Origin: a virus
Virus record (IMG/VR): IMGVR_UViG_3300017971_000735
Coordinates: 1-24,853 of that record
Direction: 5' to 3' (one strand)
Length of the DNA stretch: 24,853 bases
In this document: positions 8,091 to 17,498 of the stretch, piece by piece
How the letters are laid out: the number at the start of each line of letters is the position of its first letter
How positions within the stretch are numbered: position 1 is the stretch's first letter
Notes under the pieces: model-generated
Databases searched by the model: none
The model's input: only the letters and a program-made list of their open reading frames with translations
What the model was told of the DNA's origin: nothing
Made by a program: the position numbers and the translations under genes

Positions 8091-9074
8091 ATGAAAAAGA
8101 TTTTAATTACAGGCGGTTGTGGATTCCTTGGGCACCATTTGGTGGAGCATTATCTGAGGAATAGTGATTATGAGATTATAGTATTGGACGCGCTTACATA
8201 CGCATCCAACGGATTTGACAGGCTAAGGGATATAAACTGTTTTGATGACAAACGTATAAAGATAATAACGTACAACATCAGAGAGCCGATAAGCGAGGGT
8301 ATAATTAAGGAAACGGGTAAGTTGGACTATATACTGCACACAGCGGCAGAGACCCATGTAGATAACTCCATTATCGACCCCTTATCCTTCGTAAAGACCA
8401 ATGTACTTGGCACGGCGCATATGCTTGAGTTCGCAAGAAAAAAAGCCGATAATCTAAAGAATATGCTCTATTTCAGCACAGATGAGGTATTTGGGCCTGC
8501 TCCCCAGAAGAAGAAGTACAAGGAATGGGATAGATACAGGAGTACGAATCCCTATGCAGCGAGCAAGGCAGGGGGCGAGGAGCTATGCCTGGCGTATGCC
8601 AATACATACAAGCTACCCGTATTTATCACGCATTGTATGAATCTGTTTGGCGAGAGACAGCATCCTGAGAAATTCATACCCATGTGCATTAAGAAGATAA
8701 GGGATAACCAGTGTGTAACCATCCATGCTAACAAGGCCAAGACGGTATCAGGGTCAAGGTTCTACATCCATTGTAGGAACGTGGCAAGTGCCGTAGATTT
8801 CATACTCCCAAGGGCTACAACGGCTCATAAATACAACATAGTGGGCGAGAAAGAGGTCTCAAACCTTGATATGGCACTCACGATAGCAGAGATATTGGAG
8901 AAACCGCTCAAGTACGAGATGACAGATTTTCATTCTCAGAGGCCGGGCCACGACCTCCGTTACGCGTTGGACGGCTCTCTATTAAAAGAGCTTGGCTGGA
9001 AGATACCTATTGACTTTGAAAAATCACTTGAAAAAACCGTGAAATGGTTTATAAATAATAAGAGATGGTTGTGA
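8091..9074 (+). CDS. NAD-dependent sugar-nucleotide dehydratase/epimerase, dTDP-glucose 4,6-dehydratase-like
   Basis: This 327-residue protein is an extended short-chain dehydrogenase. It has a Rossmann GGCGFLG (residues 8-14), TAAETHVDNSI (84-94), STDEVFG (129-135) with the Asp-Glu pair typical of RmlB dehydratases, and the catalytic YAASK (Tyr155, Lys159). RPGHDLRYALDGSLLKELGW near the C terminus is also RmlB-like. The likely reaction is conversion of dTDP-glucose to its 4-keto-6-deoxy sugar, but related epimerases and decarboxylases cannot be excluded. It sits in the virion operon and may work with the glycosyltransferase at 16329. The start follows directly on the peptidase stop. Confidence 0.85.
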   Translation: MKKILITGGCGFLGHHLVEHYLRNSDYEIIVLDALTYASNGFDRLRDINCFDDKRIKIITYNIREPISEGIIKETGKLDYILHTAAETHVDNSIIDPLSFVKTNVLGTAHMLEFARKKADNLKNMLYFSTDEVFGPAPQKKKYKEWDRYRSTNPYAASKAGGEELCLAYANTYKLPVFITHCMNLFGERQHPEKFIPMCIKKIRDNQCVTIHANKAKTVSGSRFYIHCRNVASAVDFILPRATTAHKYNIVGEKEVSNLDMALTIAEILEKPLKYEMTDFHSQRPGHDLRYALDGSLLKELGWKIPIDFEKSLEKTVKWFINNKRWL

Positions 9075-11523: not shown

Positions 11524-11816
11524 TGGAATTAGACGATGAGCAGAAAGAATTACTCAAGACGGCAAAAGAGTTCAAAGAGATGTGTCAAACCGAAGGGTGG
11601 AAAAGAATTGAATCCTATATTAAAGATGCTATTGAGCAGATGGATAAATTTATTAGTTTCGATACCCTTCCTAAAGATTATAATGGATTTCTTGAGGAAG
11701 TTGTTAAACGAAGGGCTATCAGGGATACTTGGATAGAATTATTGAACCATGTAAAAAACCACATTGAAGGTGGTTTTGAATTAGAAAAACAAATGAAAGG
11801 AGGAATAGATGATTAA
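11523..11816 (+). CDS. helical protein between portal and scaffold, 97 residues
   Basis: The ATG overlaps the portal TAA as TAATG. The product is acidic at the start (MELDDEQKELLKTAKEFKEM) and predicted to be entirely helical (VVKRRAIRDTWIELLNHVKN). Small helical proteins at this position occur in other phages without firm function. It may help capsid assembly. It overlaps the scaffold gene by 8 bases and contains that gene's AAAGGAGGA ribosome site. A second frame at 11536 is a shadow. Confidence 0.65.
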   Translation: MELDDEQKELLKTAKEFKEMCQTEGWKRIESYIKDAIEQMDKFISFDTLPKDYNGFLEEVVKRRAIRDTWIELLNHVKNHIEGGFELEKQMKGGIDD

Positions 11817-12627
11817 TGTCAACCCAAACATCGACCAAGATGGCGACCAAGCTAACGACGATGTACTGGATGATGAGGATTTGGAGGTAAGTAACCTTGA
11901 GGACGAGGATGACCCCGATGCTCTCAAGGCTAAAATCAAGGAACTGGAAAAGGAAAGGGACAAGACCGAGAAACGCAGAAGGGACGCTCAGAAATGGGCG
12001 CAGCAGAACAAGAACGAAGCCGACAAAATGAAGAAGAAGTTGGCGGAGCATGGGCTTGATATAGGGGAAGATGGAAGCATCGTGAAGAAACAGTATGACC
12101 CCGGCAAGTCAAGCGAGTTGGATAGAGACAAGGTAGCGGAATTATCGCAGAAAGACCCTATTGCGGCTATTAAGGAAGTGGTAAAACACACGGTACAGGA
12201 AGAAATAGGGACTTTAAAGAAGGAACAGAAACAAGATAAATTGCTTGAGATTCAGAAATCTGACAAGGCAGCGATTGAATCGCTTGAAGGTTATGATGAT
12301 GTCAGGTCTCAGGTAGAAGATATTATACGAAAGGACAAAGGATTACTATTAACCGAAACTCCTTTTACATACGCCCTGATGAAAACGGGAAACCCTAAAT
12401 TCCTGAGAGCATTAGAGGCAAAAGGAAACTTTGGTAATATGAGTAAAGAGTCCGAGAAATTGGTTGCTGGTGTATCGAAGGGCGGGGGCAAGTCGCCATC
12501 TCCCTCAGGGGCATCGGGCATGAGCTATGAACAGCTCAGAAAGCTCACCCCCAAGCAGAGAGAGAAACTTGCTAAGGAACATACGAAGCGTGAAACAGGA
12601 CAGGAAACAATCAGACACCGCTATTAG
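11809..12627 (+). CDS. capsid scaffolding protein
   Basis: This 272-residue protein is extremely charged. It has an acidic, Asp-rich N terminus (residues 5-36), a coiled-coil-like segment (about 38-80, IKELEKERDKTEKRRRD), a helical middle, a flexible Gly/Ser/Pro stretch near 224-236 and a basic C-terminal helix (LTPKQREKLAKEHTKRE). This layout, and its position directly before the major capsid gene, are characteristic of scaffolds that shape the procapsid and leave or are degraded before DNA enters. The start has AAAGGAGGA. Sequence conservation in this family is low, so the call rests on composition and gene order. Confidence 0.8.
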   Translation: MINVNPNIDQDGDQANDDVLDDEDLEVSNLEDEDDPDALKAKIKELEKERDKTEKRRRDAQKWAQQNKNEADKMKKKLAEHGLDIGEDGSIVKKQYDPGKSSELDRDKVAELSQKDPIAAIKEVVKHTVQEEIGTLKKEQKQDKLLEIQKSDKAAIESLEGYDDVRSQVEDIIRKDKGLLLTETPFTYALMKTGNPKFLRALEAKGNFGNMSKESEKLVAGVSKGGGKSPSPSGASGMSYEQLRKLTPKQREKLAKEHTKRETGQETIRHRY

Positions 12628-12638
12628 ATTCTGATTTA

Positions 12639-12729
12639 CTTCACTCCTTTCTTTCATTAATCCGAGTTCAAAAACAACGGAACCCGTGTATCATGGTAAT
12701 CTGTTGTTACTCTAAAGAAAGGAGTGAAG
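12639..12729 (+). promoter_or_regulatory. 16-bp inverted repeat that can hide the capsid ribosome site
   Basis: Positions 12639-12654 (CTTCACTCCTTTCTTT) are perfectly complementary to 12714-12729, which contains the AAAGGAG ribosome site of the major capsid gene. The 59-base loop holds a second stem (12673-12680 with 12701-12708, one G-U). In the message this would form a long hairpin sequestering the ribosome site. The 5' arm begins 12 bases after the scaffold stop, so a ribosome finishing the scaffold could melt it. There is no T-run, so it does not look like a terminator. This fills most of the 105-base gap between the genes. Confidence 0.7.
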
Positions 12730-12732
12730 CTA

Positions 12733-13659
12733 ATGAATACTACATCTAATCTGTCAGCTCTTATGCAGACTTATTATGACGATTTGTTTCTGAAAAGAGT
12801 TGACGAGCTTAAGGTGCTTGACCAGTTCGGTCAGAAGCGTCCTCTCCCTATGGGCGAAGGTAAGGTCATATACTTCTCAAGGTATCTGAACCTTTCCACG
12901 GCTACCACGGCTCTCACGGAAGGCACAAATCCCACTGGTTCTAACCTCAGCGCAGAGAATGTGAGCGCAACTGTCGCGGAATATGGCGATTACGTCAAGA
13001 TTTCCGGGCTTGTTTCTCTCACGGCTCTTGATGAGGGAATAACTCAGAGGATACCTATACTTGCGGAGCAGTGTGCGGCTACGGTGGAGGAACTTACTGG
13101 TAACGAGGTGTATGTGAACGGCACGGCACAGGTGGTTTCCACGGCTGCTAATATGGCAGCTATCACGGCAACCGATGTGCTTACGTCTACAGACATCAAA
13201 AAGGCGTACAGGGACTTACAGCAGGAGAAGGCGATGAAATTCGCCGGTGGCTTCTACGCATCTGTCCTTGAGCCTTACACGGAGTATGACTTCTTTGGCG
13301 ATTCTACATGGGTAGATGCAAAGACATACTCGGGTGTTACCGACCTCTACAAGGGCGAGGTAGGCAAGTGGTTCGGTATGAGGTTTGTCCTCACGACCAT
13401 GCCCTATCGCTCTGATGTGGACGGCACGGCTAACAGGTCAAGTGGCGCGGTTCATTACACTCTCTGCATGGGTCAGGAAGGCTACGGCATTACCGACCTT
13501 GAAGGGGAGCGGAAGAAAGTGATAGTCCATTCAGCAGATTCTGGTGGTACTGAGAATCCTCTCAATATGTACTCGACCGCTGGCTGGAAGCTCGCTTATG
13601 TTCCGAAGATACTGAACGCTAACTGGGTCCGCGTGATTCAGTCAGGCGCGACTGCCTAA
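12733..13659 (+). CDS. major capsid protein, N4-gp56-like
   Basis: I choose the ATG at 12733, 8 bases after AAAGGAG. A GTG at 12724 overlaps the ribosome site. The 308-residue protein has the pattern of the N4-gp56 family of HK97-fold capsid proteins: LPMGEGKVIYFSRYLNLSTA and TALTEGTNP near residues 38-66, a long helix with AATVEELTGNEVYVNG, and a beta-rich C terminus (WKLAYVPKILNANWVRVIQS). It builds the icosahedral shell. Codon use is even and GC-rich, as expected for a highly expressed gene. It is followed by a terminator. Confidence 0.88.
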   Translation: MNTTSNLSALMQTYYDDLFLKRVDELKVLDQFGQKRPLPMGEGKVIYFSRYLNLSTATTALTEGTNPTGSNLSAENVSATVAEYGDYVKISGLVSLTALDEGITQRIPILAEQCAATVEELTGNEVYVNGTAQVVSTAANMAAITATDVLTSTDIKKAYRDLQQEKAMKFAGGFYASVLEPYTEYDFFGDSTWVDAKTYSGVTDLYKGEVGKWFGMRFVLTTMPYRSDVDGTANRSSGAVHYTLCMGQEGYGITDLEGERKKVIVHSADSGGTENPLNMYSTAGWKLAYVPKILNANWVRVIQSGATA

Positions 13660-13671
13660 AATAGGCAACTA

Positions 13672-13711
13672 ATGGGCGGGGTTGCAATTCAACCCCGTCC
13701 ATATTTTGATT
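13672..13711 (+). terminator. intrinsic terminator after the major capsid gene
   Basis: ATGGGCGGGGTTG (13672-13684) pairs along 13 bases, one of them G-U, with 13690-13702 around a 5-base loop. It is followed by ATTTTGATT. A shorter perfect hairpin (13653-13658 with 13662-13667) overlaps the capsid stop codon just before. Partial termination here would keep capsid message in excess over the downstream genes. Confidence 0.7.
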
Positions 13712-16093: not shown

Positions 16094-16332
16094 TGCCGAC
16101 ATACGAATATAGTTGTCAATGTGGATATAAACTTTCGCTTATACAGCTTATGAACGACCAACATATAGCGATATGCCCCCAATGCAAGAAACTTATGCAG
16201 AGGGTTTATACGCCGTTCATGTTCAAGATAGACAATAAGCCGAGGTGGTGGAATCCCAAAAAGATGGATGCCGCCGAGGACCAGAAGGCTTATCATTATA
16301 CACAGGAGAATCCAAAGAAGGTAGTGGTATGA
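16093..16332 (+). CDS. FmdB-like zinc ribbon protein
   Basis: This 79-residue protein opens MPTYEYSCQCGYKLSLIQLM, the standard MPxYEYxC start of the FmdB family of putative regulatory zinc ribbons, followed by CPQC (residues 28-31) and MQRVYTPFMFKI. The first knuckle is CxCG rather than the usual CxxCG. Family members are found in bacteria and phages. DNA or protein binding is assumed, not shown. The ATG overlaps the preceding stop as TAATG, with GGGGGTAGGA upstream, and the end overlaps the glycosyltransferase start as ATGA. Its C-terminal tail is rich in charged and aromatic residues. Confidence 0.75.
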   Translation: MPTYEYSCQCGYKLSLIQLMNDQHIAICPQCKKLMQRVYTPFMFKIDNKPRWWNPKKMDAAEDQKAYHYTQENPKKVVV

Positions 16333-17498
16333 AAATACTTGCTATATACACAGATTGGAAAGAGCGCGAGACCTATGGTGGTTGCGGATACTATCGCTGC
16401 ATAGCACCCATGCGACATCTCGGTATAAAAACGCATGGCAAGCTCATGGGCGAAGGATGTATGTATCCTGAGAAGATGGACGCTGTAAAGTTGTGGACGG
16501 ATATATGGATGAAGTACGATGTGATATATACTATGAAGGTGGACGGTAAGGAAGCCCTCGCACAGATGTATGCGAGCCGTACTCATTTCAAGAAGAAGAT
16601 AATATTGGATGTGGACGATGATTACTTTAACATAGACCCTAAAAGCTCGGCTAAGAAACATATTACACCTGACAAATATTATATAATTGAGGCGATGCTA
16701 AGGAACGCTGATATGATAACCGTATCCACGGAATATCTTAAAAAGCAGTATGAGAAATACAATGGCAAGATAACAGTAATACCTAATTATATTGATATGG
16801 ACGATTGGGCTTATGAGAACAGGATAGGCAAAGACGGGCGTATAAAGATAGGTTGGCAGGGAAGCAGTACACATGAGACAGACCTTAAGATGATAATACC
16901 CGTGCTGAAGAAGATAATGAACAAGTTCGATAACGTGGATTTTGTTCATGTAGGATACGACAGTAAGATATTCAAGGAACTGCCGAGGCGTAAATTTGTG
17001 CCGGGGACAAACGAATTTCCAGAAGCACCTAAGCTGATAGCCGACCAAGGATTTGACATAGGCATAGCACCGCTGGCTGATATAAAGTTTAACTACAGCA
17101 AGAGCGCAATCAAATATTACGAATATAGCGCATTGAAGATACCTACTGTCTGCACTGGGAACAAATGGTCTCCGTATCACGGCAAGTTCCATGATGGCAA
17201 GACGGGGATGTACGCTAATAACGAGAAGGAATGGTACGATAAGTTGACTAAACTTATCAAGGATAAACAACTCAGGAAGCAGATGGGATTAAATGCTTAT
17301 AGCCATGTAAAGCAGACATATCATATTAAAGACCATACAGATGAATGGCGAAACGTATTTGAGCGGGCGAACAATATAAAATATAAAGAAAAGCCCCAAA
17401 GGAGTAAGATATGGACACCGCCGCTATTATTGACGAAGTTGCGCGGATTACTGGTGAAACCGACTCAGGTTATGAAACCACAATCCTCCGTTATCTAA
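16329..17498 (+). CDS. glycosyltransferase, GT-B fold (family 4-like)
   Basis: The 389-residue protein has an N-terminal Rossmann-like half beginning MKILAIYTDW, with GGCGYYRCIAPMRHLG (residues 17-32). Its C-terminal half has IKIGWQGSSTHETDLKMI (172-189), FDIGIAPLADIKFNYSKSA and KYYEYSALKIPTVCT (262-276), corresponding to the donor-binding region with its conserved acidic residue. It should transfer a sugar from an activated donor to a glycan, protein or DNA acceptor. The ATGA overlap with the FmdB-like gene fixes the start. The last 29 codons (361-389) overlap the next gene and look like readthrough in a second frame rather than part of the fold. Confidence 0.85.
   Translation: MKILAIYTDWKERETYGGCGYYRCIAPMRHLGIKTHGKLMGEGCMYPEKMDAVKLWTDIWMKYDVIYTMKVDGKEALAQMYASRTHFKKKIILDVDDDYFNIDPKSSAKKHITPDKYYIIEAMLRNADMITVSTEYLKKQYEKYNGKITVIPNYIDMDDWAYENRIGKDGRIKIGWQGSSTHETDLKMIIPVLKKIMNKFDNVDFVHVGYDSKIFKELPRRKFVPGTNEFPEAPKLIADQGFDIGIAPLADIKFNYSKSAIKYYEYSALKIPTVCTGNKWSPYHGKFHDGKTGMYANNEKEWYDKLTKLIKDKQLRKQMGLNAYSHVKQTYHIKDHTDEWRNVFERANNIKYKEKPQRSKIWTPPLLLTKLRGLLVKPTQVMKPQSSVI

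Follow-up and report, generated by a model that had tools for sequence, protein, structure and literature searches.

A probable Shine-Dalgarno-sequestering hairpin at the scaffold-capsid junction of an uncultured phage, and its possible gating by ribosome position

The junction and its inverted repeat

The window (the whole stretch of DNA analysed here, 24,853 nt) is a 24.9-kb virus record in which portal and large terminase genes lie upstream of the gene for the major capsid protein. The gene immediately ahead of the capsid gene (11809-12627) has no PHROG or Pfam match; we infer from gene order and from relatives that it encodes the scaffold protein, and refer to it by that name. The features of the junction, all on the plus strand, are:

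11809 to 12627, plus strand: open reading frame for a probable scaffold protein of 272 aa, ending in the stop codon TAG (12625-12627), in the portal-capsid position seen in relatives
12639 to 12654, plus strand: arm B, the 5′ or anti-Shine-Dalgarno (anti-SD) arm, CTTCACTCCTTTCTTT (sequence, inverted-repeat scan)
12655 to 12713, plus strand: loop of 59 nt with inner stems 12664-12667/12709-12712, 12673-12681/12700-12708, and 12684-12688/12692-12696 (RNA folding)
12667 to 12694, plus strand: weak sigma-70-like promoter match within the loop, TTCAAA-16-TATCAT (consensus scan, 9/12)
12714 to 12729, plus strand: arm C, the 3′ arm, AAAGAAAGGAGTGAAG, with the capsid SD inside (sequence, folding)
12733 to 13659, plus strand: major capsid protein gene, 308 aa, ATG start (PHROG 1357 major head protein, E = 1e-54; relatives)
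13672 to 13702, plus strand: strong intrinsic-terminator-like hairpin just past the capsid gene, 13 pairs and then ATTTTG (scan, sequence)

A terminator is also annotated right behind the capsid gene in the record of the related Paenibacillus phage API480.

The preliminary description had pointed to an exact complement of the capsid ribosome site and its flanks, lying 59 bases upstream and just behind the scaffold stop codon, and inspection of the sequence confirms it: arm B (12639-12654) is the exact reverse complement of arm C (12714-12729), so that the two form a perfect 16-bp inverted repeat with a 59-nt spacer. The capsid SD, AGAAAGGAG (9 nt, 12716-12724), lies inside arm C and 8 bases 5′ of the ATG at 12733, and arm B is placed 11 nt past the upstream stop. 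The further claim that such a match is very unlikely to arise by chance also holds. Specifically, i) no other perfect inverted repeat in the window comes within 5 bp of it except the runner-up, exactly 5 bp shorter (11 bp; scan with loops up to 150); ii) in 200 order-2 Markov copies of the window the longest inverted repeat never exceeded 14 bp; and iii) RNA folding, which had been proposed as a check, gives -54.3 kcal/mol for the 201-nt region (z = -4.8), with none of 200 shuffles folding as low. The duplex of arms B and C by itself has an energy of about -23 kcal/mol, and the loop bears an additional branched stem at 12664-12712 (all energies are equilibrium values at 37 °C). An SD-sequestering hairpin is recognized by a stable helix pairing the SD on the mRNA, and here we find 16 bp over the SD at -23 kcal/mol; Rfam, searched with the window, returned no match at the gathering score. 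The evidence that the repeat would serve as a lock on the SD is good as far as sequence and folding can tell, and the hairpin is probably a real control element.

Locks among distant relatives

Searches with capsid, portal, and terminase found a sole close relative of the window, a 30.5-kb contig identical over the 6,924 bases compared; being identical, it adds no independent evidence and offers no covariation within the immediate family. Nothing in the collections searched lies between this copy and relatives at 41% capsid identity or less, and the window's own pairing may be convergent with the locks of the relatives. A pattern search also found the same inverted repeat in two other contigs, where it falls inside uracil-DNA glycosylase-like coding sequence and was set aside as coincidence.

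The survey of distant relatives was built from a capsid alignment yielding 80 loci at 31-41% capsid identity, from two further alignments that added more, and from a genome scan, whose loci came from Clostridia and Oscillospiraceae assemblies. Capsid start codons and the stops ahead of them were called automatically throughout, and near-identical leaders were dropped, giving a survey set of 126 distinct leaders with a gap of 24-160 nt; an earlier set held 101 leaders. About one third of distinct leaders have a gap shorter than 24 nt, with no room for a lock, and on the capsid tree these are interspersed with locked leaders.

Perfect Watson-Crick stems that cover the capsid SD and are 7 bp or longer are present in 32 of the 126 leaders, about a quarter, as against a mean of 3.5 (maximum 9 in 100 runs) when the gaps are shuffled. 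Swapping gaps between leaders, so that every SD faces a foreign one, gives 11.9 (maximum 19). The earlier set gave a lock in 27/101 leaders; elsewhere in those loci, 6/241 control gene junctions had one (Fisher 7e-11; the stem metric was picked after examples had been seen, and the p-values are somewhat optimistic). The locks are anchored to the scaffold stop, most 5′ arms beginning 6-14 nt behind it: among stems of at least 6 bp in the earlier set, 87.5% have a 5′ arm starting +5 to +14 nt after the stop, compared with 13% at control junctions, and the gap in that set (48 ± 13 nt) is more variable than the stop-to-start distance across the stem (15 ± 4 nt). When capsids are thinned to less than 80% identity, 25/91 leaders are locked versus 2.3 shuffled (maximum 7) and 8.2 swapped (maximum 14); on thinning to less than 70% or less than 60% the excess persists against shuffles and ceases to stand out from the swap control.

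Compensatory change, the other check that had been proposed on sequence, could be followed in the distant relatives as a group. Past the fixed GGAG core, an SD pairs with 2.70 bases of its own partner but with 1.60 ± 0.13 of a swapped one (maximum 2.11 in 500 shuffles), and the two arms co-vary outside the Shine-Dalgarno core. The preliminary description had reasoned that relatives conserving the SD without the upstream complement would speak against the lock, and here the outcome is divided: most relatives have no strong lock or have a short gap, but a large and significant minority carries the complement. Locks have been gained or lost often, supported branches of the capsid tree requiring 13 changes or more; the loops of locked relatives are mostly 6-38 nt; and the longest stem of all leaders is that of the window, at +11 after the stop and on its own long branch. 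We conclude that, at the level of sequence, complementarity over the SD, its recurrence and stop-anchored placement in relatives, and the preference of each SD for its own partner are established, and that the evidence for recurrent locks at the scaffold-capsid junction across the capsid family is good. We find it barely credible that the window's repeat arose by chance or is a neutral relic that leaves expression untouched: there are no close relatives to reveal constraint, and most relatives do lack a strong lock, but none of 200 simulated windows contained such a repeat, and other members of the family likewise have a stem that covers the SD and lies behind the stop.

Ribosome position and the scaffold tail

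The effect of ribosome position at the end of the scaffold gene was calculated with a folding model in which the ribosome is a block of 30 unpaired bases. In leaders with stems of at least 8 bp, the calculated cost of opening the SD is 2.6 kcal/mol on ribosome-free RNA; it rises to 6-8.4 when a ribosome occupies the last ten codons, is 6.4 with the ribosome on the stop, and falls to 1.8 once it stands 9 nt past the stop; lockless leaders are much flatter (2.3-4.6 overall, with 4.2-4.6 on the last codons and 2.3-2.8 past the stop). For the window the corresponding values are 11.7 without a ribosome, 13-19 on the last codons, 13-15 at the stop (13.3), and 3.6 past the stop. The window lock would accordingly be shut on naked RNA, would remain closed under a terminating ribosome, and is calculated to open when a ribosome lies 6-9 nt past the stop; in the switch-bearing relatives described below, the prediction, contrary to simple coupling, is that the lock closes when a ribosome occupies the last ten codons of the scaffold gene.

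These calculations bear on classic translational coupling, in which the ribosome finishing the scaffold gene melts the hairpin and each scaffold made permits capsid initiation. Coupling of this unfolding type is established for f1 VII-IX, MS2 coat-lysis, and E. coli rpmI-rplT (PMC12548453), where, as in the window, an intercistronic structure conceals the ribosome site of a co-expressed downstream gene; arm B sits directly behind the stop, and short-gap and locked leaders alternate on the capsid tree as if doing the same job. In those systems, however, the upstream ribosome opens the structure directly, whereas arm B of the capsid lock lies past the stop, starting level with the calculated front edge of the terminating ribosome or farther on, rather than beneath it, and closure is predicted with the ribosome on the last codons. 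Moreover, when a ribosome is placed on the stop in the 32 leaders whose stems reach 7 bp, 14 are closed further and not one is opened by as much as 3 kcal/mol. We consider classic coupling decidedly unlikely. The earlier suggestion that the hairpin couples capsid synthesis to scaffold translation survives insofar as the lock covers the SD, is anchored to the scaffold stop, and recurs in relatives; the idea that translation up to the stop opens it is not supported, since the window SD is calculated still to cost 13-15 kcal/mol to open at that point.

A likely third element in the main clade is the end of the scaffold gene, its last codons (A). A first accessibility test (70 leaders, 100-nt context) found a modest excess, 26% in the top 7.5%, and this was explained once post-stop and scaffold RNA were separated: the context had included the scaffold tail, which competes for arm B. 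Folding of lock leaders puts SD opening at about 10 kcal/mol with post-stop RNA alone and at about 2 once the end of the scaffold gene is included. The scaffold tail carries a conserved G-E motif six codons ahead of the stop, and its G codon is GGA in 31/38 lock leaders versus 34/83 lockless or short-gap leaders (Fisher 2e-5; background about 23%), while synonymous recoding of the last 15 codons of lock leaders shifts SD opening from the native 2.98 to 5.73 kcal/mol (Wilcoxon 3e-10), both being counts that ignore relatedness; the same recoding has no effect on SD opening in leaders without a lock. A tree-controlled association between A and the lock runs in the right direction (4.6 vs 1.8 pairs) and is not significant in a test that had too few pairs to compare. 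Leaders L083, L130, L097, and others display a three-part alternative pairing among the scaffold tail codons (GAGGAGAGAAGAT), the anti-SD arm, and the capsid SD, in which the tail copy resembles the SD itself. It is likely, although not proven, that the scaffold tail competes for arm B in the main clade, and the synonymous sites look as if selected for it. The window has no significant competitor A: its SD opening is 13.3 kcal/mol versus 15.3 for synonymous recodings (p about 0.27), and throughout the scaffold gene the best upstream partner of arm B is no better than shuffled.

The hairpin could instead be a static attenuator, cutting capsid initiation to a fixed rate and responding to nothing. 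Widely varying stem lengths and the frequent gains and losses would fit a tuned rate, but under a lock of -23 kcal/mol hardly any of the virion's most abundant protein would be made, and neither anchoring to the scaffold stop nor selection on scaffold tail codons would be expected; we regard this as improbable.

The frame past the scaffold TAG (12625-12660) stays open for ten codons, spans all of arm B, and ends in TAA at 12658-12660, probably by chance. Stop-codon read-through into arm B was considered and rejected, relatives such as L097 having an immediate in-frame stop.

Opening the lock, and comparison with known systems

A different kind of switch is known from bacteriophage T4, where SD-sequestering helices of e, soc, 49, and I-TevI are relieved by late promoters (PMC3014915); as in the window, the SD of a phage late gene is hidden by an upstream arm on long transcripts. 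By analogy, a promoter in the loop would give a capsid transcript without arm B and with a free SD, and read-through transcripts from upstream would be locked. A transcript from the promoter match at 12667-12694 would be without arm B; SD opening is calculated at 5.5-6.4 kcal/mol for transcripts starting at 12695-12704 and at 3-6 for starts at or beyond 12655, versus about 13-20 for longer transcripts, and the terminator-like hairpin behind the capsid gene would then yield a one-gene transcript. The match is weak, however, and near chance (about 10% expectation for a stretch of such length, about 60 nt); and whereas the switch in the T4 leaders is the start of transcription, the capsid-lock family has its arm anchored to the upstream stop, and most of its loops are too short to hold a promoter. 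We judge a T4-like arrangement fairly unlikely.

Genes of T7 are preceded by RNase III sites whose stems are comparable, and a cut within the 16-bp stem would part the arms and free the SD. A duplex this long and free of mismatches, with additional stems beyond, would suit such a processing site, but the 6-10 bp stems of the relatives are too short, leaving the family unexplained, and processing seems very improbable.

The reading we prefer, with a probability of about 0.5, is that the hairpin is an SD-sequestering intercistronic element of the scaffold-capsid mRNA, gated by the position of ribosomes at the end of the scaffold gene, and the strongest member of a stop-anchored family. While arms B and C are paired, the capsid gene would recruit no ribosome; in the window phage the lock would be closed on naked RNA and also as long as a ribosome occupies the stop or the codons just ahead of it; a post-termination ribosome scanning 6-9 nt past the stop would peel off arm B and open the SD; and in the main clade the last scaffold codons would compete for arm B, making a three-part switch. 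Three candidate openers can be named for the window, namely cleavage, a transcript initiated within the loop, and a ribosome that has moved past the stop. We judge the last most likely because it is the only one the window shares with its relatives: most of their loops could not accommodate a promoter, and their stems lack the length for RNase III. Through such gating the lock may set the ratio of capsid to scaffold. Counting against the gated model, structure just past a stop codon has been reported to lower coupling (review, PMC12548453).

We wish to stress that a broader reading is more tentative, and we hold it to be possible rather than probable: that in a large family of phages, of gut Clostridia and others, the anti-SD arm pairs either with the last codons of the scaffold gene or with the capsid SD, so that arriving ribosomes would shut capsid initiation and their passing or absence would permit it, controlling the ratio, the window being the strongest, default-off version. 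A parallel for the main clade, and for the main clade only, may be the translational attenuators of the erm leader type, in which ribosome position sets mutually exclusive RNA pairings, one of which includes the SD. The capsid switch differs from these in having no drug-stalled leader peptide, in sensing the frame of a structural gene, and in its predicted sign, which is opposite. On the features examined, the capsid lock resembles both the T4 type and unfolding-type coupling and matches neither, and a lock of this kind between scaffold and capsid genes was not found described in the papers searched, which left most subscription journals outside the search. Phages need capsid and scaffold protein in a workable ratio; if true, a lock that depends on ribosome position would be an answer for uncultured podovirus-like phages, and a compact natural design for ratio control.

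Two other genes in the window may be mentioned: one resembling NAD-dependent epimerase/GDP-mannose 4,6-dehydratase, which separates the terminase gene from the portal gene (8091-9074), and, among the structural genes, a reading frame at 16323-17498 with a weak glycosyltransferase-like match, below the Pfam cut-off.
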